The notes under the pieces were generated by a model that saw only the letters and a list, made by a program, of their open reading frames with translations, was not told where the DNA came from and made no database searches. Below, piece after piece: positions 37,802 through 53,238 of a DNA stretch of 58,598 bases. Made by a program: the position numbers and the translations under genes. Every line of letters begins with the position of its first letter. Position 1 is the stretch's first letter. Origin of the DNA: Bacteroidota bacterium (lineage in GTDB: Bacteria; Bacteroidota; Bacteroidia; Chitinophagales; Chitinophagaceae); assembly GCA_005789565.1 (NCBI GenBank), contig SXXL01000039.1, forward strand, positions 1 through 58,598. Reading direction: 5' to 3'.

Positions 37802-39013
37802 CTAGAGAAAACGGACCAGCAAATAAATGCCACCAGCCAGCAGCGCACTGATGGGGATGGTGAGGATCCAGGCCCAGATCAGGTTCAGGGTAACGCCCCA
37901 GCGCACGGCCGACAAGCGCTTGGTGGCGCCCACGCCCATGATGGAGCCGGTGATGGTATGGGTGGTGGAGACAGGGATTTTGAGTGCTTCCGTAATAAAT
38001 AGCGTCAACGCGCCGGCGGTTTCAGCTGCTACCCCTTCGAAAGGGGTTACTTTAGTGATGCGCGTGCCCATGGTCTTCACGATCTTCCAGCCACCGCTCA
38101 TGGTACCGAGTCCGATGGCCAAGTAACAAGCAATGGGCACCCAATTGGGCATTTGATCAAATTCTTGGATACTGCCACCGGCGATCAGCGCTGCAGTGAT
38201 GATCCCCATCACTTTTTGGGCATCGTTGCCGCCATGACCGATACTAAAAGCGGCAGAGGATACCAATTGCAGTTTTTTAAACCAAAGATTTGATTTGTAG
38301 GTATTGAGCGTGTTGAGGTAAAGCGAAAAGATGGCCATGATGGTCAGGATCAGTGCCAGTAAAATCCACTTGAAATTCTTTGAATAGAAAATCACCTGAA
38401 GCCAATAGTTGTCGTAATCGATGCGTTGGCTGATCACGGTACGATCCAATACAATGTTATTTCGTAAAAATATAGAGACGGCAATCAAGACCAGGATTGG
38501 TATGACCTTAGATGTCCAATCCTTCTTGAAGGAATTCAGGAACCAGAGCGACATGAGAAAAGCCATGATCATACCGATGAGCGGCGCCAAAACGATGAAG
38601 CTGGCGGTTTTGAGAATCACGGGTGAATTGACGGCATTCCATCCACCGGCAGCGATCGCTGCCCCCGCAAATCCTCCGATCAGGGTATGGGAGGAGGAGG
38701 AAGGGATGCCATACCACCAGGTCAGCAAGTTCCAAGCGATGGCCGCCAGCAAGCCGGAGAGAATCACCCAAAGCATATCATTTTTGGGAATGTCACTGGG
38801 ATGAACTGTTTTCGCTACGGTATCCGCCACGCCATGGTCCTTGAAAATAAAGAAGGCAACAGAGTTAAAAATCGCTGCCCAAAGAACTGCCTGGAAGGGG
38901 GTCAGCACCTTGGTCGAAACCACCGTTGCGATGGAATTGGCGGCATCGTGAAAGCCATTTATATAATCAAAGATCAGTGCCAGCGCAATGATCGAAAGCA
39001 GCAAAGTGGTCAT
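37802..39013 (-). CDS. PiT-family inorganic phosphate transporter
   Basis: A 403-residue membrane protein that imports phosphate with a cation (H+ or Na+). Both inverted PiT signatures are present: DYINGFHDAANSIATVVSTKVL near the N-terminus and SIGHGGNDAQKVMGIITAAL in the middle, with VSTTHTITGSIMGVGATKRLS near the end. About ten helices are seen. It follows the DUF47/PhoU-like gene by 5 nt, the standard pairing in which the PhoU-like protein is thought to control PiT activity. Confidence 0.96.
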   Translation of the reverse strand: MTTLLLSIIALALIFDYINGFHDAANSIATVVSTKVLTPFQAVLWAAIFNSVAFFIFKDHGVADTVAKTVHPSDIPKNDMLWVILSGLLAAIAWNLLTWWYGIPSSSSHTLIGGFAGAAIAAGGWNAVNSPVILKTASFIVLAPLIGMIMAFLMSLWFLNSFKKDWTSKVIPILVLIAVSIFLRNNIVLDRTVISQRIDYDNYWLQVIFYSKNFKWILLALILTIMAIFSLYLNTLNTYKSNLWFKKLQLVSSAAFSIGHGGNDAQKVMGIITAALIAGGSIQEFDQMPNWVPIACYLAIGLGTMSGGWKIVKTMGTRITKVTPFEGVAAETAGALTLFITEALKIPVSTTHTITGSIMGVGATKRLSAVRWGVTLNLIWAWILTIPISALLAGGIYLLVRFL

Positions 39014-39018
39014 TTCGC

Positions 39019-39669
39019 TTAGGCGTATTTGATGATGATGGATTCGATCACATTGGCAACGTCCTCACACTTGTCGGTCGCAATCTCCAACACCTGATAG
39101 ATTTCACGCTTTTTGATCACTTCTTTGGCATCCTCCTCAATCGCAAACAGTCGTTCGATGCTCATGTCAAAAACATCGTCGGCTTGATTCTCAATGCTGT
39201 TGATCCTGACGAGTGATTCGGTGATGGAGCGCATGTTTTTCATGTCTCGCAGCTCAATGACGGCATTGTGAACCTGTTGACATCCCTGCTCGATCAATTC
39301 CGCAAATTTTTGAATACCGATGTCGTTGGGGTTTACCCGGTAGAAATTGATCTTTTTTGCAGAGGAATAGATGTAATCGGCCACATCGTCCATGGCCGTG
39401 GCCAGGTAGTGAATATCCTCCCGGTCGAACGGCGTGATGAAATTTCTGCCCAGTTCGGTGAACAGCTGATGGGTCAATTCGTCGTTGGCATGTTCCATGT
39501 TCTCAACCTGTGTGATAATCGCGGCTCGCTTGTCAAAGTCAGGCTCGGCTACGACTTGTTTTAGTTGACCGCCCATGGTCAATAAATTGGCCGCCGCTTT
39601 TTCGAACAGCTCATAAAAAATCAGGTTTTTGGGCAAGAAAATCTTGAGTATGGATTGAAGGGCGGACAT
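39019..39669 (-). CDS. DUF47 PhoU-like regulator of the PiT transporter
   Basis: A 216-residue cytosolic all-helical protein of the DUF47 (PhoU-like) family. Recognisable parts are FYELFEKAAANLLTMGGQL, VENMEHANDELTHQLFTELG, the metal-binding-like FITPFDREDIHYLATAMDDV and EIYQVLEIATDKCEDVANVI. It has the usual repeated three-helix bundle. The gene leads the two-gene phosphate uptake transcript and has a perfect -7 box; the long divergent spacer to the TonB-dependent receptor gene lies upstream. Confidence 0.94.
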   Translation of the reverse strand: MSALQSILKIFLPKNLIFYELFEKAAANLLTMGGQLKQVVAEPDFDKRAAIITQVENMEHANDELTHQLFTELGRNFITPFDREDIHYLATAMDDVADYIYSSAKKINFYRVNPNDIGIQKFAELIEQGCQQVHNAVIELRDMKNMRSITESLVRINSIENQADDVFDMSIERLFAIEEDAKEVIKKREIYQVLEIATDKCEDVANVIESIIIKYA

Positions 39670-39838: not shown

Positions 39839-39904
39839 GTAACATTCTCGTAACAATGGGGTAATGATAGCTTAACGGCTGATTAATGTGTCGATAACCT
39901 GGCA
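39839..39904 (+). promoter_or_regulatory. Six 11-bp-spaced direct repeats, candidate PhoB array
   Basis: Seven-base units GTAACAT, GTAACAA, GTAATGA, TTAACGG, TTAATGT and ATAACCT, each followed by a 4-nt spacer. TAA occurs at 39840, 39851, 39862, 39873, 39884 and 39895, an exact 11-bp period over six units. OmpR/PhoB-type regulators bind such repeats as head-to-tail dimers; TTAACA-like units are also known for Bacillus PhoP and CTTAACCT-like units for cyanobacterial SphR. The array ends 12 nt before the likely -7 box of the receptor gene. Confidence 0.75.
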
Positions 39905-39908
39905 GATT

Positions 39909-39916
39909 CACTTTTG
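39909..39916 (+). promoter_or_regulatory. Likely -7 box of the receptor gene
   Basis: CACTTTTG matches TAnnTTTG at 7 of 8 bases, 15 nt before the ATG. The repeat array occupies the place of the -33 element, as expected for an activator-dependent promoter. Confidence 0.5.
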
Positions 39917-39931
39917 CGCAAACGAACGGAT

Positions 39932-42721
39932 ATGTGCAAAGCGGTACGCTCTATTTTGATACTCTTTTTCCTGGGATGTACGTTCACGTCGGTCGCCCAA
40001 AACCTGCGTTTATCCGGAAAGATCACCAACAATAAAAATGAACCCCTGAATGGTGTATCCTTGAAGATACAAGGAACCAATACCGGAACCATCTCAGACA
40101 ATGAAGGTCGGTTCATACTGACCTTGGCTGTTGGACAAAAGTATATTTTGACCGTTACGGCCGTCGGCTACGAGCCCAAAACAATAGAGGAGGTTGAGGT
40201 AAGATCCGGGCAGTACAACGAATTGAATTTAATCCTGGAGGTTAAAGAAAAGGTGTCAGAAGGTGTTACCATCACATCCAAAGGATCCACCGCCCGAAAA
40301 GAATCCGTGAACGCCCTGATCACTTTCCAGCGCAATACCAACACGGTGGCCTCCGTGATCGCGGCCGAGTCTATCCGACGTTCTCCCGACCGAAATACCG
40401 GAGAGGTTTTAAAACGCACCCCGGGAGCCAGTATTCAAGAGGGTCGTTTCATTGTCATCCGCGGACTGGCCGATCGCTACAATCAAGCTATGCTCAACGG
40501 GATCCTGCTCACCAGTACTGAACCCGACAGAAAGACCTTCTCCTTCGACCTGATCCCGGCCAATATGATCGACAACCTGATTATCAACAAGGCCTTCGTG
40601 CCGGAATATCCGGGTGAATGGGCAGGCGGACTGATTCAGGTCAACACCAAAGACATTCCCTCTAACAACTCGTTCAATATTCAGGTGGGCACTGGATTCA
40701 ACTCTCAAACCATCGGAAATACCTTTTACCGGGATCGGGGTGGCAACCTCGATTGGTTGGGCATTGATGACGGAACCCGCAGCCTGCCGTCCGGTTATAT
40801 CCGCAAAGCGGTTTTTGATACTTCCTCGCAGGCTGTCAAGACCGCCATTGGCAAGAGTATGCGCAATGCCTGGGCACCGATCGCCGGGTCGGCACCGATG
40901 AACGTTTCTTTTCAGTCCAGCGGAAGCTTCTCGACCAACCTTTTCGGCAAACGCCTGGGCGGCATCGTTGGGGTGAACTACAGTAAATCCAACCGCCGCG
41001 TGTTTTTACTAAACCGGTCCAATGCGATCTCGAACAATATTGCCACGCTCAACTCCAATTTCAACGACACGCGATACCAGCAAGAGATCTCGGTGGGTGC
41101 CATTGGAAGCCTGGCCCTGCAGTTGAACAGCCGGCATCGTATCTCGGTGAAGTCGCTCATCAACGTCAACAACAGCAACTCCGTAACGCAACGGGAAGGC
41201 GATGAGTTCAACCGAGATGAGCAATTGTATGGCACCGACTTGACCTTTAAGCAGAATACCTTTTTCACCACGCAATTGACGGGCGACCATACCCTGGCAA
41301 GTCCCCTCAAACTCCGATGGTACAGTTCCTTTACCATCCTCGATGGTTATATTCCGGATCAGCGTCGAATCGCCTATTCCCGCATAGCCGGCACACAAGA
41401 TCCCTATCGCTTGCTGATCTCGAATGTGCTTTCACAACAAAGCGGTAGCCGGATCTTCCAGACCCTCAGCGATTATATCTATACAGCCGGTGGAGATCTC
41501 AGTTACAATTTTGATTGGCTGGGACAGAAGCAAACGCTGAAGGGGGGGTACATGTTACAGGTTAAAGATCGGCTCTACGATGCCAATCTCTTCGCCAATT
41601 ACCTGACTATCGACAATCCCGGCCTTCGCTCCTTACCGGCCGACCGGGTCTTCGATCCAATTCACTTTGGAAACGGCACCGATAATCTGTTTGGGTTTGA
41701 TGCCATCAAGGGTCGAACGTTTCGCTACATGGCCAACACCATCCTCAATGGTGGTTTCTTGCAACTCGACAATCAATTTACCAAGAAGTTACGCGTGGTA
41801 TGGGGACTGCGGGTGGAGCACTATGATCAGTTGGTGGGCAGCGTCAAGACCTGGGATCCCCGGCATACGTATTCTAAAGTGTTGGACTTTCTGCCCGGCG
41901 TGAACGCTACCTACAAAGCGACGGCTAAAACCAATATTCGCCTCTCGGCTTCGCAAACCGTTATCCGTCCCGAATTACGCGAACTCGCCTTTTTGAATCT
42001 CTACGATTTTGAATTGAATGCATCCGTGCAAGGAAACCCAAACCTGCTTCGCACCAAGATCGCTAACCTTGATCTGCGATATGAGATCTATCCCCGCGCC
42101 GGCGAGGTATTTACCTTGGGTACTTTTTTCAAACGCTTTGAAAATCCCATCGAACAACTCTTCAATGAAGGGGTAGGGGGTTCCAGCACGTTCAGCTACC
42201 AAAATGCCAAGCGGGCAACGGTCTACGGTGTGGAAGCCGAGTTTCGGAAGAAGCTGGATATGGTCGACGGGTTGAAAAACTTTACGTTCCAGGCCAACGG
42301 TTCACTCATCAAGAGCCAGGTGAAAGACCTGTCGCTGGGCATAGACCGGACCTTGCAGGGGCAGTCGCCTTACATGATCAACCTGGGACTGCTATACGAT
42401 GTTGAGAAATTGGGATTGACCGCGACCCTTTTATACAACCGCATTGGCGAGCGCATCTATTTGGTGGGTGATATCAGTGCCGGTTCCGGTTCGCCCGATA
42501 TCCTCGAAGCCCCCCGTCACCTCGTCGATTTTCAGATGAGCAAAAAAGTCCTGAACAAGAAAGGCGAGCTGCGCTTCAACGTTTCGGATCTCTTCAATAC
42601 GGTCCAATACTTCTATCAAAACGTGGGTGAGAAATTCAGCTTCCAGAAAAATACGGATGCTTATCGCTTCACCCGTCAGACCGGTACCACGTTCAGTTTA
42701 ACCTTCAATTATACTTTATAA
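39932..42721 (+). CDS. TonB-dependent receptor, candidate phosphorus-source importer
   Basis: A 929-residue outer-membrane receptor. The signal peptide ends near SVAQ (about residue 22). A CarboxypepD_reg-like domain covers about 24-105 (LRLSGKITNNKNEPLNGVSL), then the plug (about 125-235; RSPDRNTGEVLKRTPGASIQ, FIVIRGLADRYNQAMLNGIL, FVPEYPGEWAGGLIQVNTKD) and a 22-strand barrel ending in a Phe-Asn-Tyr-Thr-Leu tail (TTFSLTFNYTL). It is not SusC-like: there is no SusD partner. The ATG at 39932 is preferred over an in-frame TTG that belongs to the -7 box. The Pho-box-like array upstream and the pit, ppk, phoR/phoB neighbours suggest induction by phosphate shortage. Confidence 0.93.
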   Translation: MCKAVRSILILFFLGCTFTSVAQNLRLSGKITNNKNEPLNGVSLKIQGTNTGTISDNEGRFILTLAVGQKYILTVTAVGYEPKTIEEVEVRSGQYNELNLILEVKEKVSEGVTITSKGSTARKESVNALITFQRNTNTVASVIAAESIRRSPDRNTGEVLKRTPGASIQEGRFIVIRGLADRYNQAMLNGILLTSTEPDRKTFSFDLIPANMIDNLIINKAFVPEYPGEWAGGLIQVNTKDIPSNNSFNIQVGTGFNSQTIGNTFYRDRGGNLDWLGIDDGTRSLPSGYIRKAVFDTSSQAVKTAIGKSMRNAWAPIAGSAPMNVSFQSSGSFSTNLFGKRLGGIVGVNYSKSNRRVFLLNRSNAISNNIATLNSNFNDTRYQQEISVGAIGSLALQLNSRHRISVKSLINVNNSNSVTQREGDEFNRDEQLYGTDLTFKQNTFFTTQLTGDHTLASPLKLRWYSSFTILDGYIPDQRRIAYSRIAGTQDPYRLLISNVLSQQSGSRIFQTLSDYIYTAGGDLSYNFDWLGQKQTLKGGYMLQVKDRLYDANLFANYLTIDNPGLRSLPADRVFDPIHFGNGTDNLFGFDAIKGRTFRYMANTILNGGFLQLDNQFTKKLRVVWGLRVEHYDQLVGSVKTWDPRHTYSKVLDFLPGVNATYKATAKTNIRLSASQTVIRPELRELAFLNLYDFELNASVQGNPNLLRTKIANLDLRYEIYPRAGEVFTLGTFFKRFENPIEQLFNEGVGGSSTFSYQNAKRATVYGVEAEFRKKLDMVDGLKNFTFQANGSLIKSQVKDLSLGIDRTLQGQSPYMINLGLLYDVEKLGLTATLLYNRIGERIYLVGDISAGSGSPDILEAPRHLVDFQMSKKVLNKKGELRFNVSDLFNTVQYFYQNVGEKFSFQKNTDAYRFTRQTGTTFSLTFNYTL

Positions 42722-42749: not shown

Positions 42750-44186
42750 ATGAAAAAATCCCTTTTCTTTTTATCCGCACTGGCCACATTGGCTTGGACC
42801 GGTTGCCGCAAGATCGAATCCGACGGAGAGATCCAAGTCGTTGTCGTCAATGGCGGTGGCGGCGGTACTACCCAAGGTCAGACCATCACCCTGCAGGGAC
42901 GGATCAGCAGAGACACCCTGCTGAAAAAGCAAAATACCTACATCCTGAAAGGGTTGGTGTACATGGTCAACAACGCGACCATGACCATCGAACCCGGCAC
43001 GGTGATTAAAGGATCGTATAGTGGTACCGACGTAGCGGCCCTGGTCATCACGCGTGGCGCCAAGATACGGGCTGAAGGTACGGCCACCGAGCCCATTGTA
43101 TTCACGTCCGCTTCGCCCAATCCCCAATCGGGCGACTGGGGTGGGATCGTGATCTGCGGCAAGGCACCGGTAAATACCAGTTTCAACGGGGCGGCCAGTA
43201 CCTTCCAGGTGGAAGGCGGAATTGACAATGCGAATGGCGACGGATTGGCCGGGGGTACCGATGCCGCTGATAATTCCGGTTCACTGAAATACGTACGGAT
43301 CGAATATGCCGGGTATGCCTTTCAGCCGGATAAAGAGATCAATAGCTTGACCATGGCCGCTGTTGGCAACGGAACAACGATCGAGAACATTCAGGTTTCG
43401 TATGCCAAGGATGACGCCTATGAGTGGTTTGGGGGCACCGTGAATTGTAAATTCCTGATTGCGTACAAGACGCTGGATGATGATTTTGATACGGACAACG
43501 GCTTTACCGGAAAAATTCAATTTGGTTTGGTGATCCGGGATTCCCTGCTGGCCGATATCTCTCGCTCTGAGGCCTTCGAGAGCGATAACAACCCAAGCGG
43601 CACCACGGCTACTCCGAAGACCGCTCCGATCTTTAGCAACATCACGGTGATCGGTCCTCGCGCCACCCTCACCAACCTCGGCAATACCTTGTATCGGGGT
43701 GCGGCACACATTCGTCGCAACTCTGCTATGTCTCTTTTCAATTCGATCATCCTGGGTTGGCCTCGGGGGATTGAATTGGATGCCACCACCGGTTCGTCCG
43801 TTGCCTTGAACGTAGAAGATAGCTCCTTGCGCTTGCGCAACATCACGTTGGCCGGCAATACCGTCAACACCTTATTTGCCGGAACGCCTGGCGCCACCAT
43901 TACCAACGATGCAGCATTTACCAGTTGGTTTACGAATTCGTTCTATGGAAATGATATTCTGACCAACGTATCAGATGCCCGGTTGGTACAGCCCTTCAAC
44001 TATTCAGCACCGGATCCAACCCCGTTTGCCGGATCCAATGGTAACATACGAATCAATACGGGTGGCGGGTTTACCGACCCCAAGTTCAATGGGGATACCT
44101 TCTTTGATAAAACGGTGGTATTCCGCGGGGGCATTGCCCCGGCCGGTCCACTCACCAGCTGGTGGAAGGGATGGACCAAGTTTTGA
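42750..44186 (+). CDS. Surface lipoprotein with beta-helix-like repeats
   Basis: A 478-residue lipoprotein (lipobox WTGC, Cys19) encoded 28 nt after the receptor and surely cotranscribed. A Gly-rich linker (GGGGGTTQGQT) leads to a domain with strand repeats typical of right-handed parallel beta-helices: NNATMTIEPGTVIKGSYSGT, ALVITRGAKIRAEGTATEPI, VFTSASPNPQSGDWGGIVIC, then LKYVRIEYAGYAF, GTTIENIQVSYAKDDAYEWF and ATLTNLGNTLYRGAAHIRRN. Proteins of this layout often follow TonB-dependent receptors of this type in Bacteroidota and have no known enzyme activity. A substrate-capturing partner of the receptor is the simplest idea. I see no catalytic motif. Confidence 0.85.
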   Translation: MKKSLFFLSALATLAWTGCRKIESDGEIQVVVVNGGGGGTTQGQTITLQGRISRDTLLKKQNTYILKGLVYMVNNATMTIEPGTVIKGSYSGTDVAALVITRGAKIRAEGTATEPIVFTSASPNPQSGDWGGIVICGKAPVNTSFNGAASTFQVEGGIDNANGDGLAGGTDAADNSGSLKYVRIEYAGYAFQPDKEINSLTMAAVGNGTTIENIQVSYAKDDAYEWFGGTVNCKFLIAYKTLDDDFDTDNGFTGKIQFGLVIRDSLLADISRSEAFESDNNPSGTTATPKTAPIFSNITVIGPRATLTNLGNTLYRGAAHIRRNSAMSLFNSIILGWPRGIELDATTGSSVALNVEDSSLRLRNITLAGNTVNTLFAGTPGATITNDAAFTSWFTNSFYGNDILTNVSDARLVQPFNYSAPDPTPFAGSNGNIRINTGGGFTDPKFNGDTFFDKTVVFRGGIAPAGPLTSWWKGWTKF

Positions 44187-44208
44187 TCTCCTCCTTAAAT
44201 AATTAACG

Positions 44209-44239
44209 CATCGCCTCCATTCGGAGGCGATGTTGTTTC
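44209..44239 (+). terminator. Intrinsic terminator after the receptor-lipoprotein operon
   Basis: CATCGCCTCC pairs perfectly with GGAGGCGATG around ATTC, followed by TTGTTTCT. It separates the receptor operon from ppk1, which has its own near-match -7 box TACCTTTA at 44240-44247. Confidence 0.85.
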
Positions 44240-44259
44240 TACCTTTACAAAGCATCATC

Positions 44260-46326
44260 ATGAAGCCCAAACACATTGCCCGCGACATCAGTTGGTTAAG
44301 TTTTAACGCGCGCGTGCTGCAGGAGGCCAACGATCCAACGGTCTCCTTGCAGGACCGCATCCGTTTCATGGGCATTTTCTCCAATAACCTCGATGAGTTC
44401 TTTCGGGTGCGCGTCGCTACCCTGAAGCGAATGGTGGAGTGGACAAAACTGCGCAAAAAGGCATCCTTCGATCGCATCGAATCGCCACAATCGGTGTTGG
44501 ATGAAATCCAACGAATTGTACTTCGGCAACAAAATGAATTCAATCGAATTTGGGAAAACGTGTACAAAGAGTTGCGAAAGGCCGGGGTGTATCTGGTGGA
44601 CGAGAAAAAACTTAGCGCCGAACAACGCCGATTCGTCCGGACGTATTTTGACGAGGTGGTTCGTCCGTACATCATCCCGCTGATGATCGAGAATATCCCC
44701 CAGTTTCCCTACCTGCGCGATAAGAGTCTGTACTTGGGCGTAGTGATGCGGGATAAAAAAGATGCCTATCAGGAGAAATTTTCCTTGATCGAGATTCCAG
44801 CACGTTCCGTTGGACGATTCGTCTTGCTGCCCACCAAACCGGGTACGCACGCCATTATGTTGCTGGAAGATCTGATCCGATTCAATTTGCCAGAGTTGTT
44901 CTCGCATACGAAATACAATCAGTTCGAGGCCGGTGTATTCAAGATCACCAAGGATGCGGAGATCGATATGGACCAGGAGGTTGGATTGAACTTGGTCGAA
45001 AAACTACAAAAAGGACTCAAGAGCAGGCGAAAAGGCAAACCGGTTCGGTTCATCTATGAGCGTACGATGAATCCCCGATTGTTGCAGTATCTGATCGATA
45101 AGTTACAGCTCAGCCGTAAGAGTAACATCATTCCGGGTGGGCATATTCACCATTTCCGCCATTTTATGGATTTTCCACGGGTGCTACCGAATCAGACACC
45201 GCGTCCGGCTCCGTTTCGTCATCCTGCCCTGAAGAAAAGCCGTCTCGTCTCCGAGGTCATTCAGGAACGTGATGTCATGCTGCATTTCCCGTACCACAGC
45301 TTTGATCCGGTGATCGATCTGCTTCGGGAAGCGGCCATGGACGATGCGGTGTTGTCGATACAGATAACGGCCTACCGCTTGGCTTCCAATTCCAAAGTGA
45401 TCAACGCGCTGATCAATGCGTCTCGCAATGGGAAAAAGGTATTGGTTTGTTTGGAATTGAAGGCACGATTTGATGAAGAGGCCAATCTGGAATGGAAGTC
45501 CGTTCTGGAAGAGGAAGGGGTGCAGGTTTTGGTAGGCTTGCCCAATAAAAAAGTACATGCCAAGCTCTGTTGTATTCATAAGAAAAAAGGAAAAGAGCTG
45601 GTGGCTTATGGTTTCATCAGCACGGGTAACCTCAACGAGAAGACGGCACAAGTGTATGCCGATCACTGTTTGCTCACCGCCTCCGCCCCTCTTATGCGCG
45701 AGGTAGAGAAGGTCTTTGAGTACTTGACCGATTGGAAAAAGGGATTGGGTCCGATTCGCACGATGCGTCACTTACTGGTTGCCCCCACCAACATGCGTCG
45801 AAAGATCCTGGATCATATTCAAGCGGAGATCCGGCTCGCCCGTAAAGGGAAACCGGCGGAGATCATTGTGAAACTGAATTCACTGAGCGATCTTACCCTG
45901 GTAGATGCCTTGTACAAAGCTGCCAAGGCCGGCGTGAAGGTGCACCTCATCATTCGTGGTATATTTTGTCAACGGCTCAAATTCGAGGAAGTAGAAGCCC
46001 GGGTACAGTCGATCAGCATCGTAGATCAGTACCTGGAACATGCTCGCGTCATGATTTTTGCCCGGGACGGCGACCCGCTCGTGTACATCAGCAGTGCCGA
46101 CTGGATGGTCCGTAACCTCGACCATCGGATCGAGGTGGCAACGCCGGTCTATGATCTGCGCATCAAGCAAGAGTTGATCGGACTCATCCGCATTCAGTTG
46201 GCAGATAATCAAAAGGCACGTATTTTGGAGCCGGGTTTATCCAATCGTTATGTTTCCCCCACTGCCAAAAAGAAAAACCGCTCCCAGGAACAGACCTATG
46301 TTTTTTTACGCGCTAAATCCAGATAA
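44260..46326 (+). CDS. ppk1: Polyphosphate kinase 1
   Basis: A 688-residue enzyme that makes polyphosphate from ATP at the membrane. The N domain begins HIARDISWLSFNARVLQEAND and carries NNLDEFFRVRVATLKRMVEW. The catalytic core has the phosphorylated His433 in KVHAKLCCIHKK, followed by GFISTGNLNEKTAQVYADH, and the second key region LDHRIEVATPVYD. Length is normal. The start is the ATG at 44260; the longer frame runs into the terminator. The ppx start codon follows the stop directly, so both are made from one message. Confidence 0.97.
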   Translation: MKPKHIARDISWLSFNARVLQEANDPTVSLQDRIRFMGIFSNNLDEFFRVRVATLKRMVEWTKLRKKASFDRIESPQSVLDEIQRIVLRQQNEFNRIWENVYKELRKAGVYLVDEKKLSAEQRRFVRTYFDEVVRPYIIPLMIENIPQFPYLRDKSLYLGVVMRDKKDAYQEKFSLIEIPARSVGRFVLLPTKPGTHAIMLLEDLIRFNLPELFSHTKYNQFEAGVFKITKDAEIDMDQEVGLNLVEKLQKGLKSRRKGKPVRFIYERTMNPRLLQYLIDKLQLSRKSNIIPGGHIHHFRHFMDFPRVLPNQTPRPAPFRHPALKKSRLVSEVIQERDVMLHFPYHSFDPVIDLLREAAMDDAVLSIQITAYRLASNSKVINALINASRNGKKVLVCLELKARFDEEANLEWKSVLEEEGVQVLVGLPNKKVHAKLCCIHKKKGKELVAYGFISTGNLNEKTAQVYADHCLLTASAPLMREVEKVFEYLTDWKKGLGPIRTMRHLLVAPTNMRRKILDHIQAEIRLARKGKPAEIIVKLNSLSDLTLVDALYKAAKAGVKVHLIIRGIFCQRLKFEEVEARVQSISIVDQYLEHARVMIFARDGDPLVYISSADWMVRNLDHRIEVATPVYDLRIKQELIGLIRIQLADNQKARILEPGLSNRYVSPTAKKKNRSQEQTYVFLRAKSR

Positions 46327-47214
46327 ATGATTCTAGCTGCCATCGACATCGGCAGCAACGCTGCGCGGCTTCTGATCTGCGAGGTAACCACGCTGGGAAA
46401 AGAATCACGCTTTGACCGATTGAATTTTCTTCGCATTCCGCTGCGACTCGGTTTCGATGTTTTTGAAAAAGGCCACATCGGTGCTCGCCGTAAGAAGATG
46501 CTGATCGAAACCATCGATGTGTTTGCCCGTCTGATCCGAATCCACGAGGTCGATCATTACATAGCGTGTGCCACCAGCGCCATGCGCGATGCGGAAAATG
46601 CCAAAGAGATCATAAAGGAGATCCGGCAGCAAACTGGCATCGGCATTGATATCATCTCCGGGGATCTGGAAGCGGAGATCATCTACGAGAACCACATTGC
46701 GGAAGGCCTGGATGCGGGCCACAGTTATCTGTATATGGATGTGGGGGGTGGAAGTACCGAATTGACCTTTTATCATCGATCGGAAGTCGTTTTTCAACGC
46801 TCCTTCAATGTGGGTACGATCCGAATGCTCACCGAGCACCTCGACGATTCGGTTTGGCAGGAAATGAAACAATTTCTTCGGGAGTTTGCCAAGAAATACG
46901 ATCCCGTGACCGCCATCGGCTCCGGCGGCAACATCAACAAGTTGGCATCCCTGCTGAATGGCAAATCGTTGCGGCCCATTCCGATCGATACCGTTCGGGA
47001 AATGCACAAGGAAATGAGTGATCTCTCGGTGGAAGCGCGCATGATCCGATACAAACTGAAGCGCGACCGGGCCGATGTGATCGTACCGGCCCTGCTTATC
47101 TACAGTCATCTCATGAAATGGGCCGGCATCCAGGAGATCTATGTGCCCAAGATCGGTTTGGCAGACGGACTGATCCATCACCTCCACGAGCAATTAGTGG
47201 CGAAGGCTAAGTGA
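46327..47214 (+). CDS. ppx: Exopolyphosphatase / Ppx-GppA phosphatase, short form
   Basis: A 295-residue actin-fold phosphatase that removes terminal phosphate from polyphosphate (or from pppGpp). The phosphate loops are LAAIDIGSNAARLLICEV and YMDVGGGSTELTFYHRSEVV, with AIGSGGNINKLASLLNG further on. It has only the two actin-like domains; the C-terminal HD-like domains of the E. coli enzyme are absent, which is usual for this short type. The ATG is adjacent to the ppk1 stop. The 3' end overlaps the convergent glycosyltransferase gene by 8 nt. Confidence 0.95.
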   Translation: MILAAIDIGSNAARLLICEVTTLGKESRFDRLNFLRIPLRLGFDVFEKGHIGARRKKMLIETIDVFARLIRIHEVDHYIACATSAMRDAENAKEIIKEIRQQTGIGIDIISGDLEAEIIYENHIAEGLDAGHSYLYMDVGGGSTELTFYHRSEVVFQRSFNVGTIRMLTEHLDDSVWQEMKQFLREFAKKYDPVTAIGSGGNINKLASLLNGKSLRPIPIDTVREMHKEMSDLSVEARMIRYKLKRDRADVIVPALLIYSHLMKWAGIQEIYVPKIGLADGLIHHLHEQLVAKAK

Positions 47215-48238
47215 TCGGAAGAAATGTCCGTTCGATATCCCGCTGTTTAATTTTTTCCCCCAGCCGCATTACCTTTCGAACGACCGGTGTGATGCAATCC
47301 GAATAATCTCGGTGTATCCACTCGCCCTGAGTAAGCCAGTTCAGTAGCACCGGCCTTTCTTTTTCTGACAGTCTACCTAAACAGCGAACCCCCATTTGTT
47401 GAAGCGCCGCCGCATTACAAACTTGTTCGTATTGGCCTTGTATCGGTATGGCAATGATTTTTTTTCCGAGGTGGATGGCTTCGGCTGGTGTTTCAAAGCC
47501 AGCCCCACAAATTATTCCATCGGAATGGATCAAACTTTCATCAAATCGCTCCCGTTGGATGGGCAGGAACCAGACATTTCCCTGGCGTCTTGCCTTATGG
47601 GTGGATCTGGAAAAGATCTCGAATCGGGTACCCGGCAGCGTTAGAAATAGTTTTTCCAGAAATGCGTCCTCATAGGCCGGTAAGTACACGGTGATGTGTC
47701 CGGCTCGGGTGGGGGTAGCCCGAATGATTTCCGGCTTTATGACGGGCATAAAAACGTTCGGATGGTAAGTTTCGAAATGCAATCCGATGTGACAGCTTGC
47801 TTTTACAAAATGACGCAGTAGCATTTCACCATGCCAGGTGCGATTTTTAGGACGGGGTGTTTGAGGATATTGAAAGCTTGCTTGATGTCCAAAGTGCACG
47901 GAGGGTACATCTTTCAAGCGACAGGCCAAGGACGTAACAAAGTCAAAATCATTGATCACCAAGTCATATTTCTGTACGGGTAGCTGCTCGGCATCCCGCC
48001 AAATTTCAGAGAGCTTAACTTTTCGGATCAGATGCCAGTAGTTCAGCCCCCCTCGGTTGTTATAAAACAAGCTTACTCCCCGGCTTCGATACCGTACGGG
48101 TCCGTCAAACGGCAGATGGCAGTTCGACCCACTCAGGAAAATGTCTACCTGCCCATACAGTTGTAGATAGGGCAGCAGGGTTTGGGCCCGGCTCACATGG
48201 CCATTTCCAGTAGCTTGGACAGCATACAGGATTTTCAT
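47207..48238 (-). CDS. Glycosyltransferase, GT-B fold, candidate lipid glycosyltransferase
   Basis: A 343-residue enzyme with two Rossmann-like halves. The N-terminal MKILYAVQATGNGHVSRAQ has the GNGHxSR loop of MurG/UGT-like enzymes, and the C-terminal donor site reads SDGIICGAGFETPAEAIHLG and KIIAIPIQGQYEQVCNAAAL. It resembles the family often listed as glycosyltransferase family protein with the Glyco_tran_28 C-terminal domain. The ATG overlaps the stop of the phosphoesterase gene (ATGA), so the two are translationally coupled. It is not the GT4-type Agt known from phosphate-starved marine bacteria. A role in making a glycolipid from diacylglycerol is inference from context. Confidence 0.88.
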   Translation of the reverse strand: MKILYAVQATGNGHVSRAQTLLPYLQLYGQVDIFLSGSNCHLPFDGPVRYRSRGVSLFYNNRGGLNYWHLIRKVKLSEIWRDAEQLPVQKYDLVINDFDFVTSLACRLKDVPSVHFGHQASFQYPQTPRPKNRTWHGEMLLRHFVKASCHIGLHFETYHPNVFMPVIKPEIIRATPTRAGHITVYLPAYEDAFLEKLFLTLPGTRFEIFSRSTHKARRQGNVWFLPIQRERFDESLIHSDGIICGAGFETPAEAIHLGKKIIAIPIQGQYEQVCNAAALQQMGVRCLGRLSEKERPVLLNWLTQGEWIHRDYSDCITPVVRKVMRLGEKIKQRDIERTFLPIT

Positions 48239-49086
48239 GAGGGTAGTTGTAGGGAGTGAATGTGCATTGAAATTTCTTCGGTCATGACCACAGCCTCTGG
48301 TGTACGAAGCACCAAGGGAATCAACGGGGCCATTGCATAGTCCGCTTCGCGATAGTGATACAGGCTCCAGCTTCCACCGGCATACTCCAAGGCGGTCAAA
48401 TTTTCGATCCAATCGCCGCTATTTAAATAAGTTACCTTTCCTTTTGGGGTCATGATGTCCCGATGCTGCGGCTGATGGATGTGGCCACAGATAACGTATT
48501 TATAGCCTTTTTCTATGGCCAGCTCTGCCGCCGTTTGTTCAAAGTTGTTGATCCAGGCCACTGCTTTTTTTACGCCATTTTTTACTTTTTTGCTCAAGCT
48601 CATTTTGGGTCGATTGAGTTTGACCAATAGCCAATTGATGAGTCGGTTTAGCAGGATCAACCAGTCGTATCCAACCCCTCCTAATTTGGCAATGATCTTA
48701 GCGGAACCCTTGGTGGTGGCATCGAACACATCGCCGTGAAAGATCCAGGTCATCTGTCCATCAATCTCCAATACCAGTTTGTCAGTTATTTGAAAATGAC
48801 TGAGCTGCCATCCACTGTAGCGGCGTAGCATTTCATCGTGATTGCCGGTAATGTATACGACGCGTGTACCCATTTCTGTCAAATTCAAGATCTCCTTGAT
48901 GACCTGTAAATGGGCGGGCGGGAAATAACGTTTACTGAATTGCCAGCCATCGATGATGTCGCCGTTCAGTATTAGCCATTTGGGGCGAATGTGCCGAAGA
49001 TATTGGACGATCTCTCGCGCATGACACCCGTATGTGCCCAAGTGCAAGTCGGATATGACCACCATGTCTGCGTCCCTGTAATGCAT
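48235..49086 (-). CDS. PlcP/LpxH-like calcineurin-type phosphoesterase
   Basis: A 283-residue metallophosphoesterase with a complete dinuclear metal site: Asp13 and His15 in SDLHLGTYG, Asp43 in NGDIIDGW, Asn82-His83 in GNHDE, His117 in FHGDVFD, and His202/His204 in CGHIHQPQ. The layout HLGTYGC...ILNGDIIDGW...YITGNHDE...NSGDWIE is that of PlcP, the intracellular phospholipase C of phosphate-starved bacteria, usually mis-annotated as UDP-2,3-diacylglucosamine diphosphatase. LpxH itself is a single-copy lipid A enzyme, and which of the two this is cannot be settled by eye. The coupled glycosyltransferase, the Pho-box-like repeats upstream and phoR/phoB just upstream favour lipid remodelling. Confidence 0.88.
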   Translation of the reverse strand: MHYRDADMVVISDLHLGTYGCHAREIVQYLRHIRPKWLILNGDIIDGWQFSKRYFPPAHLQVIKEILNLTEMGTRVVYITGNHDEMLRRYSGWQLSHFQITDKLVLEIDGQMTWIFHGDVFDATTKGSAKIIAKLGGVGYDWLILLNRLINWLLVKLNRPKMSLSKKVKNGVKKAVAWINNFEQTAAELAIEKGYKYVICGHIHQPQHRDIMTPKGKVTYLNSGDWIENLTALEYAGGSWSLYHYREADYAMAPLIPLVLRTPEAVVMTEEISMHIHSLQLPS

Positions 49087-49116
49087 CGGTTAAGATGAAA
49101 TGTAAATTCCATCCCA

Positions 49117-49158
49117 CATGTGAACGCAACGCTACGGAAATCTTAACTTCTTGTTACC
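49117..49158 (-). promoter_or_regulatory. Short 11-bp repeat array upstream of the phosphoesterase gene
   Basis: On the minus strand GTAACAA and TTAAGAT are exactly 11 bp apart, followed in the same register by the degenerate units GTAGCGT and TTCACAT. A 7/8 -7 box, TACATTTC, lies at 49097-49104. It is a weaker version of the array at 39839. Confidence 0.5.
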
Positions 49159-49166
49159 ATCGGAAT

Positions 49167-50216
49167 TCAAACAGGCTTCGTCTCCAATGTAAATCCGAAT
49201 GTGGTGCCCACTTGTTCGGTGCTGCGCACATGTATACTTTGTCCGTGTGCTTCTAAAATATGCTTGCAGATGGCCAGGCCCAGTCCGCTGCCCGTGAGAT
49301 CCATGCTTCGCCCTGCTTCCGTCCGGAAAAAGCGCTCAAACACCCGCGGCAGATCCCCTTCCGGAATACCTACACCATCGTCGGTGATCTCGACCAGAAT
49401 GCGTTTGCCATCGGTTTGATAGATGCTGGCCAGCACTTCCCCGCCTTGTTTTCCGTATTTGATGGCATTGGATATCAGGTTACTCAAAACTTGTTGGATC
49501 TTTTCCCGGTCCGCAAATACGGTTACGGGCGACTCCGAATCTTTTTTGATCTGACACCGGATCTCTCGAGTCTCGGCTTTGGATTGTTTGCTGTCATATA
49601 CTTCCCGGATCAACTCCTGGATCACGAAGGGTTCCTTGGTCAGTACGATCTCCCCGCGCTCCAATTTGGCGATCTGATCCAGATCGGTCAACAGGTGCGA
49701 CAGCCGATCCACATTCTTGGCAGCCCGCTCCAAAAAACGTTTGGCCGTTTCCGGGTTCGCCAGGGCACCGTCCAACAGCGTATCGATATAACCTTGAATG
49801 GCGAATACCGGCGTCTTGAATTCGTGCGAGAGGTTTTGAAGGAATTCGCGGCGAAACTGTTCGTTGTGACGGAGTAGTTCCAGTTCCTTTTCGTTATCGG
49901 CGGCCCAGCTTTCCACATCCACGCCCACTTCCTCGATCGTTTTTTTCGGTATCAGATATTTATAGTAGGTCTCTTCCTTCTTGGTGGCCTTTGTCTTAGA
50001 AATGAATTTGTAGATCAGTTTGATCTGCCGATATACGAAACGCTCGAGCATGAAGGAGATCAGTAGGTAACTGATCCCGAAGACGGTCACAAAACAGAGG
50101 ATCGCCCAGCCCACTTGTTTTTCAACCCACCAGAGAAAAAGTGATTCGGGGATGGCGAGCAGGAAAGCCGTGAGTAAGGAGATCTGTCGGGGGGTGCTAT
50201 TCCGAAGCGAGAACAT
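49167..50216 (-). CDS. PhoR-like sensor histidine kinase
   Basis: A 349-residue membrane kinase with two helices (about 13-30 and 36-57), a short linker and no large periplasmic domain. The DHp helix has the phosphorylated His131 in LSHEFKTP; the ATPase domain has N box LISNAIKYGKQGG, EITDDGVGIPEGD and GSGLGLAICKHIL. This minimal type is the PhoR form common in Bacteroidota. It follows the response-regulator gene by 24 nt. The lack of a sensor domain fits signals relayed by a transporter or PhoU-like protein, as in other PhoR systems. The name PhoR rests on type and neighbours. Confidence 0.92.
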   Translation of the reverse strand: MFSLRNSTPRQISLLTAFLLAIPESLFLWWVEKQVGWAILCFVTVFGISYLLISFMLERFVYRQIKLIYKFISKTKATKKEETYYKYLIPKKTIEEVGVDVESWAADNEKELELLRHNEQFRREFLQNLSHEFKTPVFAIQGYIDTLLDGALANPETAKRFLERAAKNVDRLSHLLTDLDQIAKLERGEIVLTKEPFVIQELIREVYDSKQSKAETREIRCQIKKDSESPVTVFADREKIQQVLSNLISNAIKYGKQGGEVLASIYQTDGKRILVEITDDGVGIPEGDLPRVFERFFRTEAGRSMDLTGSGLGLAICKHILEAHGQSIHVRSTEQVGTTFGFTLETKPV

Positions 50217-50240
50217 GCTGCAAAGCTAGGGGAGGGGCAC

Positions 50241-50924
50241 TCAATCCCACTCGAACTTATATCCCACGCCTTTGACGGTAGTGATGCAGTCCACGCCCAT
50301 TTTCTGACGGATCTTTCGGATGTGTACATCGATAGTGCGATCGCCTACGATCACATCACCGCCCCAGACCTGACTCATGATCTCCTGGCGCAGAAACACG
50401 CGACCGGGTTTTTGAGCCAGTAGATACAGCAGTTCGAATTCTTTTTTGGCGAGCGTGATCTCGTTTTCGTCGATCTTGACCATGAATTTTTCGAGATCGA
50501 TCGTCAGGTTCCCGAAGCGCAGTTGGCGGTGGGCGGTGGGTTGGGGCAGTCTTCGGAAGAGTGCTTGGATGCGGGACAGAAATACTTTCGGACTCAGGGG
50601 TTTGGCGAGGTAATCGTCGGCTCCGGTTTCCAGTCCCTTTATCTGGGCCAGGTCATCGCTGACCGCTGTCAGAAAAACGATCAGGGTTTTCTGAAAGGTT
50701 GTTTGGGAACGTAGCCACTGGCAGACCTCCACCCCTGTTTTGCGAGGCATCATCACATCCAAGACGATCAGGTCGGGTTGGTGCTTACGAGCTTTGTCCA
50801 GCGCCTCATCCCCATCCTTGGCCGTGATCACCTCGTAGCCTGCTTGCACCAGGTTGTACCGGAGGATCTCCAGGATATCCGGATCGTCGTCGGCGATCAA
50901 TATTTTCCGGTCGGTGGCAGACAT
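50241..50924 (-). CDS. phoB: PhoB-like response regulator (OmpR family)
   Basis: A 227-residue regulator. The receiver domain has the acidic pair Asp12-Asp14, the phosphorylated Asp56 in LIVLDVMMP and the Lys in YLAKPLSP; the C-terminal winged helix has LTKKEFELL-like ITLAKKEFELLYLLAQKPGR, QVWGGDVIVGDRTIDVHIRK and TVKGVGYKFEW. OmpR-type regulators of this subgroup bind 11-bp direct repeats, as found at 39839. The gene is the first of the pair with the kinase and has a perfect -7 box 13 nt before the ATG. Confidence 0.93.
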   Translation of the reverse strand: MSATDRKILIADDDPDILEILRYNLVQAGYEVITAKDGDEALDKARKHQPDLIVLDVMMPRKTGVEVCQWLRSQTTFQKTLIVFLTAVSDDLAQIKGLETGADDYLAKPLSPKVFLSRIQALFRRLPQPTAHRQLRFGNLTIDLEKFMVKIDENEITLAKKEFELLYLLAQKPGRVFLRQEIMSQVWGGDVIVGDRTIDVHIRKIRQKMGVDCITTVKGVGYKFEWD

Positions 50925-50972: not shown

Positions 50973-50990
50973 TTAATGATTAATTAATAT
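50973..50990. promoter_or_regulatory. Two TTAA units 11 bp apart between phoB and the 741-residue gene
   Basis: TTAATGA and TTAATAT are 11 bp apart, and the TTAA core is palindromic so both strands can be read. The nearer unit ends 13 nt before the -7 box at 51001, the same distance as in the receptor promoter. Confidence 0.45.
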
Positions 50991-51000
50991 AAATGCCATC

Positions 51001-51008
51001 TACCTTTG
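51001..51008 (+). promoter_or_regulatory. -7 box 4 nt before an ATG
   Basis: TACCTTTG, perfect TAnnTTTG, then CCCC and the ATG of the 741-residue protein. Confidence 0.65.
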
Positions 51009-51012
51009 CCCC

Positions 51013-53238
51013 ATGAATGGTCGCCTCCTGGCTTATCTTTTCTTTTTTCCCTGGATGACCCTTCAGGGGCAGGGCCTGGCCTCGGTCGATAGTTTTGATA
51101 TCCCCAAAAGTTACAAACCGGCCTTTAAGCGGGAGCGCAATCACGAGTTGGTCGACCAAGAGCAATCCCGCCTGTTTGCATCCGACGGCAAGGCCGATAC
51201 CGTCTTCGATCCGTCCGGTGGTCCGGTCTTACGCGACCGGCTGACACGGGCATTTGGCCGGCAGGTCGACTGGTTGCAATACCGTATCGAGGCCGATTCC
51301 ACGTTGGAACACCGCGAGAAAATGAGTCAGCTCTACGGACTCGAATACCTGATCCGATCTTATCGCAGCAGTTGGACAGGGCGGGAGGGGATCCCGGTCG
51401 CTGAGGGGGCTCTGCTGGTAGAGACCTATTCCACGCTGTTGAACGGAGCGCGACAACGAGTTTCCATCCGTCCCGCTTTCTACCCGCTCAGTTATGAAGG
51501 GGGGATGGCCCTTTTGGGTTCCGATCGATTTACACTGCTGCCCGGTTATCGGGAAACCCTGAACGATCTGGTGGTCAAATATTGCCGACAGCATCCCGAC
51601 CGGATCCTTCGCAAATTGCAGCTCCACCCCGAGGTGGCGGCGGCGGACAGCCTGATCGTGGTGGTCGCAAAAAAACAACCGCGTCTGTTGTATGATTATG
51701 CGGCGGCTCTCGACCCGCTCGGGGTGCGCATCCGCTATAACAATCATCCAATGGTCAAGACCATCGCGGTCATGGCCGGCAGCAAGAACGGGCAACAATA
51801 TTTTCCTTTTCTGGACCAGCTCTTGAACGGCAAGGTCAGTTTTCGGGAGATCGATCAACTGCGCGACGATACGCTGGGCTATTATAAATTATTGGTCAAA
51901 ACCCAACGCGATTATTGGTCCCGCACCCTGCAAGGCGACACAGCCTTCGAGTTCGAGGCATTGACCCAACGCCTGGAAAAAAAGGCCAAAGAGGATTTTG
52001 TACACGTCATCAATGGATTGCACGATGCGGCCCCCTCGGTCCGTTTCGCTTGTCTGCAGTCCTTGACGGCGGAAGAATTGTATTACCTGGCCGTAGCCTC
52101 GGATGGCGTGATCTATACCAGCAGTTTCGTGAAAGGGATCTATCCGCTGATGATGCAGCGCATCGGTAACCGAGGCGACTCGCTGCTGAGGATCTTGCAA
52201 TTCGATCGGTATCGGAAATTCATCAAGATGGCAGCGGGGTATAACACCCTCGGCGATTTTCTGGGAACCTTTCCGCCCGCCGTCAACCCGGGTGAGCGGA
52301 GCGAAGCGGAGCAGTTGATGCGAAATTTTGTGAGCCAGCTGGAGCAGACCAGCGGATTGGAGTCGGGGGTGGATGTTGCTGATTCTTATGCCAGCATCCG
52401 CGAATTCCAAAAGCCCATTGCCGACCAAATGCTGGAGCAAGTCACTCGTGAAGGGGCGCGCAACCGGTCCGCCGGCCATAAAAGAGGAGAGACGATCTAT
52501 CGGATCTTGGACGTCCTGTTTCGGTCGGCCGATACCAGCCAGCACCTCGACCTGACACGGGAACTGGGGATTCCGCCGGTATACCAGGTGCCGTATCGAT
52601 TGTTGGTGAACGACAGTGGTCGCGTTGTCATTCAAATTTTCTTTTATGGAGATGCGGATGGCAAGAGCATTTTTCAGGGCTTTCTAAAAATGTTTCCCAC
52701 GGCCAACTGGAGCGTGGATGAATCCAATCCCCAATGGGTATCGGTCAAGTCCCGCAAGGGCCGTCCCGTCTTCCTCTTTGCGAATAGGCCCTTGCCCGAG
52801 GAAACGGGTGGCGATGACCAGGCCCAGGCGGCCCTCACCGCTTATTTGAGGGATAAGGATCTTTCACCGACCATCACCATCCACCGCGGCCACAGTTATT
52901 TTGCGCCGTCTACCATCCTGCGTTTGTCCCCCAGCTCCCGGATCGTATTTCTGGGATCCTGTGGCGGCTACCACTTGATCCACGATGTATTGAAAAAAGC
53001 CAACGATGCCCACATCATTGCATCCAAACAGATCGGTGCCACCTCCGTGAACCGGCCCTTTCTGCAATTGCTGACGGAAAAAATTCGTCAGGGGCAGGAC
53101 ATTGACTGGATCCCGTTCTGGAAAGAACTGGACCGTCTGGTGACCGTCAAGGAATTCGACGACTACATACCTCCCTATAAGAACCTGGGGGCTCTCTTCA
53201 TCAAGGCCTATCAACGTGAAATGGAAACACGCGAGTAG
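51013..53238 (+). CDS. Exported 741-residue protein with a clan CD peptidase-like His/Cys pair
   Basis: I do not recognise a named family. Residues 1-22 form a signal peptide (LLAYLFFFPWMTLQGQG). Residues about 70-520 are largely helical and hold repeated Arg-rich stretches with no catalytic motif I can name. The last 160 residues look different: strand VVIQIFFYGDADGKSIF, then TITIHRGHSYFAPST with His627, then SSRIVFLGSCGGYHLIHDV with Cys650, then AHIIASKQIGATSVNRPFLQ. A His in HxGH at the end of one strand and a Cys after a hydrophobic strand 23 residues later is the arrangement of caspase-hemoglobinase-fold (clan CD) peptidases such as gingipain and caspase. The ABC exporter gene follows after 23 nt. 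Function unknown; a peptidase or a dead relative is possible. Confidence 0.75.
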   Translation: MNGRLLAYLFFFPWMTLQGQGLASVDSFDIPKSYKPAFKRERNHELVDQEQSRLFASDGKADTVFDPSGGPVLRDRLTRAFGRQVDWLQYRIEADSTLEHREKMSQLYGLEYLIRSYRSSWTGREGIPVAEGALLVETYSTLLNGARQRVSIRPAFYPLSYEGGMALLGSDRFTLLPGYRETLNDLVVKYCRQHPDRILRKLQLHPEVAAADSLIVVVAKKQPRLLYDYAAALDPLGVRIRYNNHPMVKTIAVMAGSKNGQQYFPFLDQLLNGKVSFREIDQLRDDTLGYYKLLVKTQRDYWSRTLQGDTAFEFEALTQRLEKKAKEDFVHVINGLHDAAPSVRFACLQSLTAEELYYLAVASDGVIYTSSFVKGIYPLMMQRIGNRGDSLLRILQFDRYRKFIKMAAGYNTLGDFLGTFPPAVNPGERSEAEQLMRNFVSQLEQTSGLESGVDVADSYASIREFQKPIADQMLEQVTREGARNRSAGHKRGETIYRILDVLFRSADTSQHLDLTRELGIPPVYQVPYRLLVNDSGRVVIQIFFYGDADGKSIFQGFLKMFPTANWSVDESNPQWVSVKSRKGRPVFLFANRPLPEETGGDDQAQAALTAYLRDKDLSPTITIHRGHSYFAPSTILRLSPSSRIVFLGSCGGYHLIHDVLKKANDAHIIASKQIGATSVNRPFLQLLTEKIRQGQDIDWIPFWKELDRLVTVKEFDDYIPPYKNLGALFIKAYQREMETRE

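Follow-up and report, generated by a model that had tools for sequence, protein, structure and literature searches.

A conserved array of six 11-bp repeats upstream of a TonB-dependent receptor gene, a putative Pho box of Bacteroidota

The window, i.e. the whole stretch of DNA analysed here (58,598 nucleotides), is one complete contig of a genome of 1,875,105 bases (1.88 Mb) from a member of the Chitinophagaceae. Nearly every gene between 37.8 and 50.9 kb is phosphate-related. A spacer parts a minus-strand DUF47/PhoU_div gene (39019-39669) and a minus-strand PiT phosphate transporter gene (37802-39013), both divergent from the receptor and assigned by domain searches, from a plus-strand group of four genes. 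This group consists of a TonB-dependent receptor (39932-42721; domains Plug, CarboxypepD_reg and OMP_b-brl_3), a lipoprotein of 478 aa (42750-44186), polyphosphate kinase 1 (ppk, 44230-46326; domain search and profile scoring) and an exopolyphosphatase of the Ppx/GppA family (ppx, 46327-47214; domain searches). The lipoprotein is the usual partner of the receptor and accompanies it at 67 of the 76 loci examined outside the genus. On the minus strand follow a glycosyltransferase (47207-48412; PF13528, weak PF04101) and, adjoining it, a PlcP-like calcineurin-type metallophosphoesterase (48235-49086; PF00149/PF12850); by inference from the available text of PMC4796936, these two would form a PlcP-Agt-like pair. 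An earlier note on this DNA had placed a PhoB/PhoR-like pair about 10 kb away, and domain searches locate it at 49167-50924 on the minus strand, comprising a PhoR-like sensor histidine kinase of 349 aa (49167-50216) and a PhoB-like response regulator of 227 aa (50241-50924), our proposed array binder.

The spacer upstream of the receptor carries, at 39839-39904 on the plus strand, an array of six 11-bp units, which read in order GTAACATTCTC GTAACAATGGG GTAATGATAGC TTAACGGCTGA TTAATGTGTCG ATAACCTGGCA. The array, a proposed Pho box delimited by sequence, a genome pattern search and the alignment within the genus, can be written (K)TAA(C/T)(A)(T)NNNN. The T of each TAA lies at 39840, 39851, 39862, 39873, 39884 and 39895, and the period is exactly 11 bp; re-reading of the sequence confirmed all six positions as given in the earlier note. 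Genome-wide, the pattern TAA-N8-TAA-N8-TAA-N8-TAA is found in this single array only (as three overlapping matches). With the TAA frequency of the window (0.0072 per position and strand), 5e-7 six-unit runs and 0.01 four-unit runs are expected in the whole genome, and the recurrence at chance level that would have spoken against the earlier note is thus not seen. The spacer is more AT-rich than the window (GC 0.41 vs 0.53), as a chance periodicity in AT-rich spacer DNA would have it, but a six-unit run is expected only 2e-7 times within the spacer when its own composition is allowed for, and the array is kept in relatives of the same genus and of other groups. Given the genome pattern count, these expectations and the period test and shuffles on held-out loci reported below, we reject a chance origin, whose probability we consider negligible.

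The array is directly followed by a -7-type promoter box, CACTTTTG, at 39909-39916 (plus strand), identified from the sequence and from same-genus promoters. About 11 bp separate the end of the promoter-proximal unit from the TTTG of this box, and the TTTG starts 18 nt past the T of the last TAA, both in the window and in all 27 same-genus promoters compared. The box is invariant as CAnnTTTG in these 27 promoters. The Bacteroidota consensus is TAnnTTTG, with T as the first base, and the C in its place would suit a promoter that needs an activator. The automatic start of the receptor reading frame, TTG at 39914, falls within the box, while an in-frame ATG at 39932 opens MCKAVRSILILFFLGC..., which is signal-peptide-like. 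Since the TTG sits inside the promoter box, the ATG at 39932 is probably the true start of the receptor, and we revised the gene accordingly.

Within the genus, the region from the array to the -7 box aligns without any gap in 27 orthologous promoters, the receptors of which are 35-91% identical. TAA occupies registers 1 to 6 in 24, 22, 10, 27, 22 and 26 of the 27 promoters and T-N-A in 24, 24, 27, 27, 27 and 27, so that register 3 is the degenerate one (TAA 10/27, T-N-A 27/27); the flanking registers show TAA in 0-1 of 27. The base before TAA is G in 53% and T in 39% of the genus units, and the base after it is C in 74% and T in 24% (C/T together 98%), followed by A (67%) and T (71%). Together with the occurrence in other families and orders described below, this supplies the conservation in relatives on which the earlier note had made its reading depend. 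Phased TAA steps could also be a structural element, acting by intrinsic curvature or in an UP-like manner and strengthening the promoter without a specific activator, and the helical phasing of TA-containing steps immediately upstream of the -7 box is what such an element would display. Its units, however, are not A-tracts, the bases after TAA (C/T, then A and T) and the orientation are conserved, and the exact 11 bp is held without drift across six units. As the array is moreover present at functionally related promoters and absent at neighbouring genes, we regard a purely structural role as very improbable.

The period was examined outside the genus with a unit profile trained on the genus only, which was applied at periods 7 to 16 to 76 receptor loci of GTDB genomes outside the genus. 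The mean profile score is 12.66 at period 11 vs 2.0-3.6 at each other period, and period 11 is preferred in 58 of the 76 loci. The array thus also stands before homologous receptor genes of other families and orders, and with six exact repeats in the window and 11 beating 7-10 and 12-16 in the held-out loci, it shows the tandem direct repeats of 11-bp period expected of a Pho box. TTTG follows the last called unit after 18 nt (22 loci), 29 nt (27 loci) or 40 nt (3 loci), which corresponds to 18+11k. A joint criterion, a profile score of at least 10 plus TTTG in register, is passed by 42 of the 76 receptor loci vs 30 of 365 other ORFs at the same loci (Fisher p 4.5e-19), where some of the neighbours among the 365 are phosphate genes themselves, and by none of 1520 dinucleotide shuffles. 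About 45% of the 76 loci fail this score-and-register criterion, and several Flavobacterium receptor loci score low with the genus-trained profile. The genomes share ancestry, and all these held-out counts measure conservation, not independent origins. A shorter two-unit pattern, KTAAYAT-N4-KTAAYAT, was dropped for its many chance matches outside the genus.

Where else the array recurs was determined in 42 same-genus genomes with a relaxed four-unit pattern plus TTTG at 18 nt, the reversed pattern serving as control. The pattern matched 61 times and the reversed control 9 times; phosphate-type genes or a linked small RNA (see below) follow 53 of the 61 forward matches, in agreement with the enrichment before phosphate genes that the earlier note had proposed to look for. 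The receptor accounts for 30 matches, the small RNA for eight, an alkaline-phosphatase-superfamily gene (PF01676/PF00884) for seven, the phosphoesterase-glycosyltransferase operon for five (a single genome contributing two of these, both at contig ends), an operon of porin O/P (PF07396, OprO/P-type), DUF47 and PiT for two and a choice-of-anchor-I protein for one; the remaining eight precede other genes or none. At period 11, the profile scores 13.3 at the phosphoesterase and 15.4 at the phosphatase-superfamily gene, and no other period exceeds about 3. Profile scoring by gene revealed no array at the promoters of DUF47, PiT, ppk, ppx, phoB and the lipoprotein on their own strand. The array hence precedes phosphate-acquisition genes rather than unrelated ones. 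The phoB promoter of the window itself shows no clear array in profile scoring, and the idea of an array acting as operator of its own phoB was abandoned. Matches before a large protein in two genomes (G063 and G026) were set aside, as they lie far from the gene; the protein starts MANKKQASAKSGLQFSRRF and resembles a class II ribonucleotide reductase.

The source genome holds two further sites. The first, at 49113-49157 on the minus strand of the window, consists of four units, GTAACAAGAAG TTAAGATTTCC GTAGCGTTGCG TTCACATGTGG, ahead of the metallophosphoesterase, and reaches a profile score of 20.2. Here, TTTA is found 17 nt past the last unit, while the full form, with the 18-nt step to TTTG, is seen in the promoters of orthologues elsewhere. 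The second is located on contig 77 (L141), near position 2950 on the minus strand, with units TAA, TAA, TCA and TAA and the 18-nt step to TTTG (TTTTGC). It precedes a choice-of-anchor-I lipoprotein gene (PF22494; 1410-2906, minus strand), and the choice-of-anchor-I gene of another genome also carries an array.

The PhoB-like protein has the domains of a response regulator, a receiver (PF00072, E 4.8e-28) and a Trans_reg_C domain (PF00486, E 2.5e-23). Its best two curated models are both PhoB models, which it matches below their cut-offs (TIGR02154, 219.6 of 296.2 bits; NF053854, 214 of 270 bits). The recognition helix RTIDVHIRKIR is kept, and Lys replaces Arg at the positions corresponding to E. 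coli PhoB 201 (57 of 58 sequences) and 219 (58 of 58). In E. coli PhoB, Arg201 reads the G of TGTCA; a link between Lys201 and the TTAAC half-site is only suggestive. A phoB homologue (at least 45% identity) is the divergent neighbour of the receptor at 19 of the 76 loci outside the genus; among 20 additional neighbourhoods, some of which coincide with these 76, about half show this arrangement. Co-occurrence of PhoB and array was not retained as evidence because it does not discriminate: almost all genomes of the genus encode PhoB, including G003, G010, G012 and G031, genomes without a receptor orthologue and without the pattern.

A different regulator of the OmpR/PhoB family, e.g., of the RprY or ArcA type, could bind the array at outer-membrane genes, which would make the phosphate link indirect. 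All known sites of the family are direct repeats (PMC4832192), the Riemerella TTTAACA core was described as ArcA-like and for redox and virulence genes rather than phosphate (PMC9603813), and within the genus the pattern also stands before genes for two further TonB receptors and one small secreted protein. The array-bearing promoters, however, belong mostly to phosphate-type genes, phoB is often the divergent neighbour gene, and counterparts are Pi-induced in Flavobacterium johnsoniae (PMC8115612). We therefore consider another regulator unlikely and PhoB the preferred binder.

How does the array compare with known systems? The half-site is TGTCA in E. coli and of the TTAAC type in Bacillus PhoP; the genus unit, (G/T)TAA(C/T)AT, departs from the former, while the unit profile contains the TTAAC of the Bacillus PhoP and SphR type. 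The E. coli Pho box has 8-bp repeats with a 3-bp linker and ends about 10 bp before the -10 box, and the SphR box of cyanobacteria is a tandem run of at least three CTTAACCT joined by 3-bp linkers (PMC1906773). The array and the E. coli box both consist of 11-bp direct repeats that take the place of the upstream hexamer and stop some 10 bp short of the -7/-10 box, and the proposed regulator is of the same family as that of E. coli, whereas the TTAAC half-site, the larger number of units, the promoter type and Lys201 and Lys219 of PhoB instead of Arg set the array apart. With SphR, it has in common a TTAAC-type unit in at least three tandem copies, the 11-bp period (8+3) and the position before phosphate genes; it differs by its four to six units of (G/T)TAA(C/T)AT with free spacer, by the phylum and by the fixed 18-nt step to the TTTG of the Bacteroidota -7 box. 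Members of the OmpR/PhoB family occupy direct repeats as dimers arranged in tandem, and for Mycobacterium tuberculosis PhoP the spacing is strictly 7+4 bp (PMC4832192).

Within the phylum, DAP-seq of Riemerella anatipestifer PhoP gave the core TTTAACA, published as ArcA-like with a redox and virulence link (available text of PMC9603813). The likeness to our unit lies in the core bases; a PhoPR two-component system is likewise involved and a TonB receptor is among the EMSA-confirmed targets, but the same text has no array length, fixed -7 spacing or phosphate regulon. In F. johnsoniae, the receptor Fjoh_0545 rises by 8.0 log2 and the lipoprotein FII Fjoh_0546 by 9.9 log2 under Pi depletion, and both belong to the phoBR cluster (PMC8115612, part available). 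Our receptor resembles Fjoh_0545 in its domains (PF07715, PF13715, PF14905), the following lipoprotein and the vicinity of phoBR, and by position the 478-aa lipoprotein is probably the counterpart of Fjoh_0546. For the phosphate response of the receptor, which the earlier note had likewise named as a test of its reading, these published values from F. johnsoniae are what the analysis covered. PlcP, a glycosyltransferase, a PF01676 phosphatase and the propeller lipoprotein Fjoh_3414 are Pi-induced as well, and this PHO regulon matches the array targets by family, although the available text defines no binding sequence (PMC8115612). Bacteroides fragilis PhoB binds the pstC promoter, its motif being undefined in the text at hand (PMC3547664), and Pho boxes were predicted at plcP clusters of marine isolates, with no sequence given in the part available (PMC4796936). 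Our literature search, in part limited to such partial texts, found no paper that defines a Pho box motif or PhoB site for Flavobacteria or Bacteroidota, or a six-unit array.

We thus interpret the array as a putative Pho box, a PhoB activator site of six TTAAC(A)T-type units in place of the -33 element that would serve activation at low phosphate, and put the probability of this reading at roughly 0.85. Repeated directly every 11 bp, the six half-sites would lie on about one helix face. At low phosphate, PhoR would phosphorylate PhoB, and PhoB~P may then bind the array as up to three head-to-tail dimers. As the last unit ends about 11 bp before TTTG, PhoB would stand where the -33 element is otherwise expected and could recruit RNA polymerase to the weak CAnnTTTG box, switching on the receptor and the lipoprotein. 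The same module would drive the phosphate regulon including the phosphoesterase/glycosyltransferase operon of the window, and by analogy with the homologues in the literature, array targets are presumably Pi-induced. The earlier note had spoken of a triple Pho box. The Pho box is supported, but its number needs rewording: should PhoB bind in the manner usual for its family, the six units would provide three dimer sites in tandem. Bacteroidota play a major part in phosphorus recycling in soil, water and gut, and catalogues of their Pi-induced genes exist; a defined unit, period and -7 distance could make the phosphate regulon predictable from sequence in many uncultured genomes and suggests how an activator may work on promoters of the unusual -33/-7 type that Bacteroidota possess.

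Eight array matches (L124, L125, L126, L127, L128, L129, L130 and L136) precede no protein but a conserved transcript-like element of about 107-120 nt, which ends in a G+C-rich hairpin and a T-run with compensatory changes. A covariance model of this small RNA, starting at the -7 box and thus excluding the array, returned five further strong loci (L331-L335), each of which has an array of three or four in-register units, TTTG being replaced by TTTA. Two weak matches (E 0.005 and 0.009) lacked the array and were discarded. The small RNA, with a length of about 107-136 nt over all these loci, is present in 13 same-genus genomes and as a rule lies 4-6 kb downstream of the promoter of the receptor; the covariance-model search did not find it in the source genome or its two nearest relatives. 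We judge the chances to be about even for a Bacteroidia-wide Pho box in which three PhoB dimers, bound in tandem along a single face of the helix and at a constant distance from a weak -7 box, take over the role of the -33 element completely, and in which the same module drives this conserved small RNA at low phosphate in the 13 genomes. The small RNA is the most surprising extension of the proposed Pho box and would, if this holds true, to our knowledge be the first PhoB-controlled sRNA of Bacteroidota.

Some minor observations concern other parts of the window and of the genus. Between the lipoprotein and ppk genes, a strong hairpin CATCGCCTCC..GGAGGCGATG, followed by TTGTTTCT, lies at 44205-44235 and is possibly a terminator or attenuator dividing the operon. 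The spacer between phoB and a 741-aa gene (51013-53238, no Pfam match) holds, at 50973-51008, a pair of TTAAT units at an 11-bp distance, along with a CTTTG box; a weak period-11 signal occurs in 6 of 6 orthologous promoters of this spacer and is off the -7-box register in the window. In G020 and G032, a phosphate-selective porin O/P gene heads the DUF47-PiT operon, which has a separate array directed away from the receptor; at the DUF47-PiT locus of the window (37802-39669), the porin gene and that array are missing. Finally, arrays lie ahead of a secreted protein of 132-133 aa in two genomes (L137 and L140) and ahead of two other large TonB-type receptors (L132 and L134; 1106 and 1112 aa), possibly receptors for phosphorus uptake.
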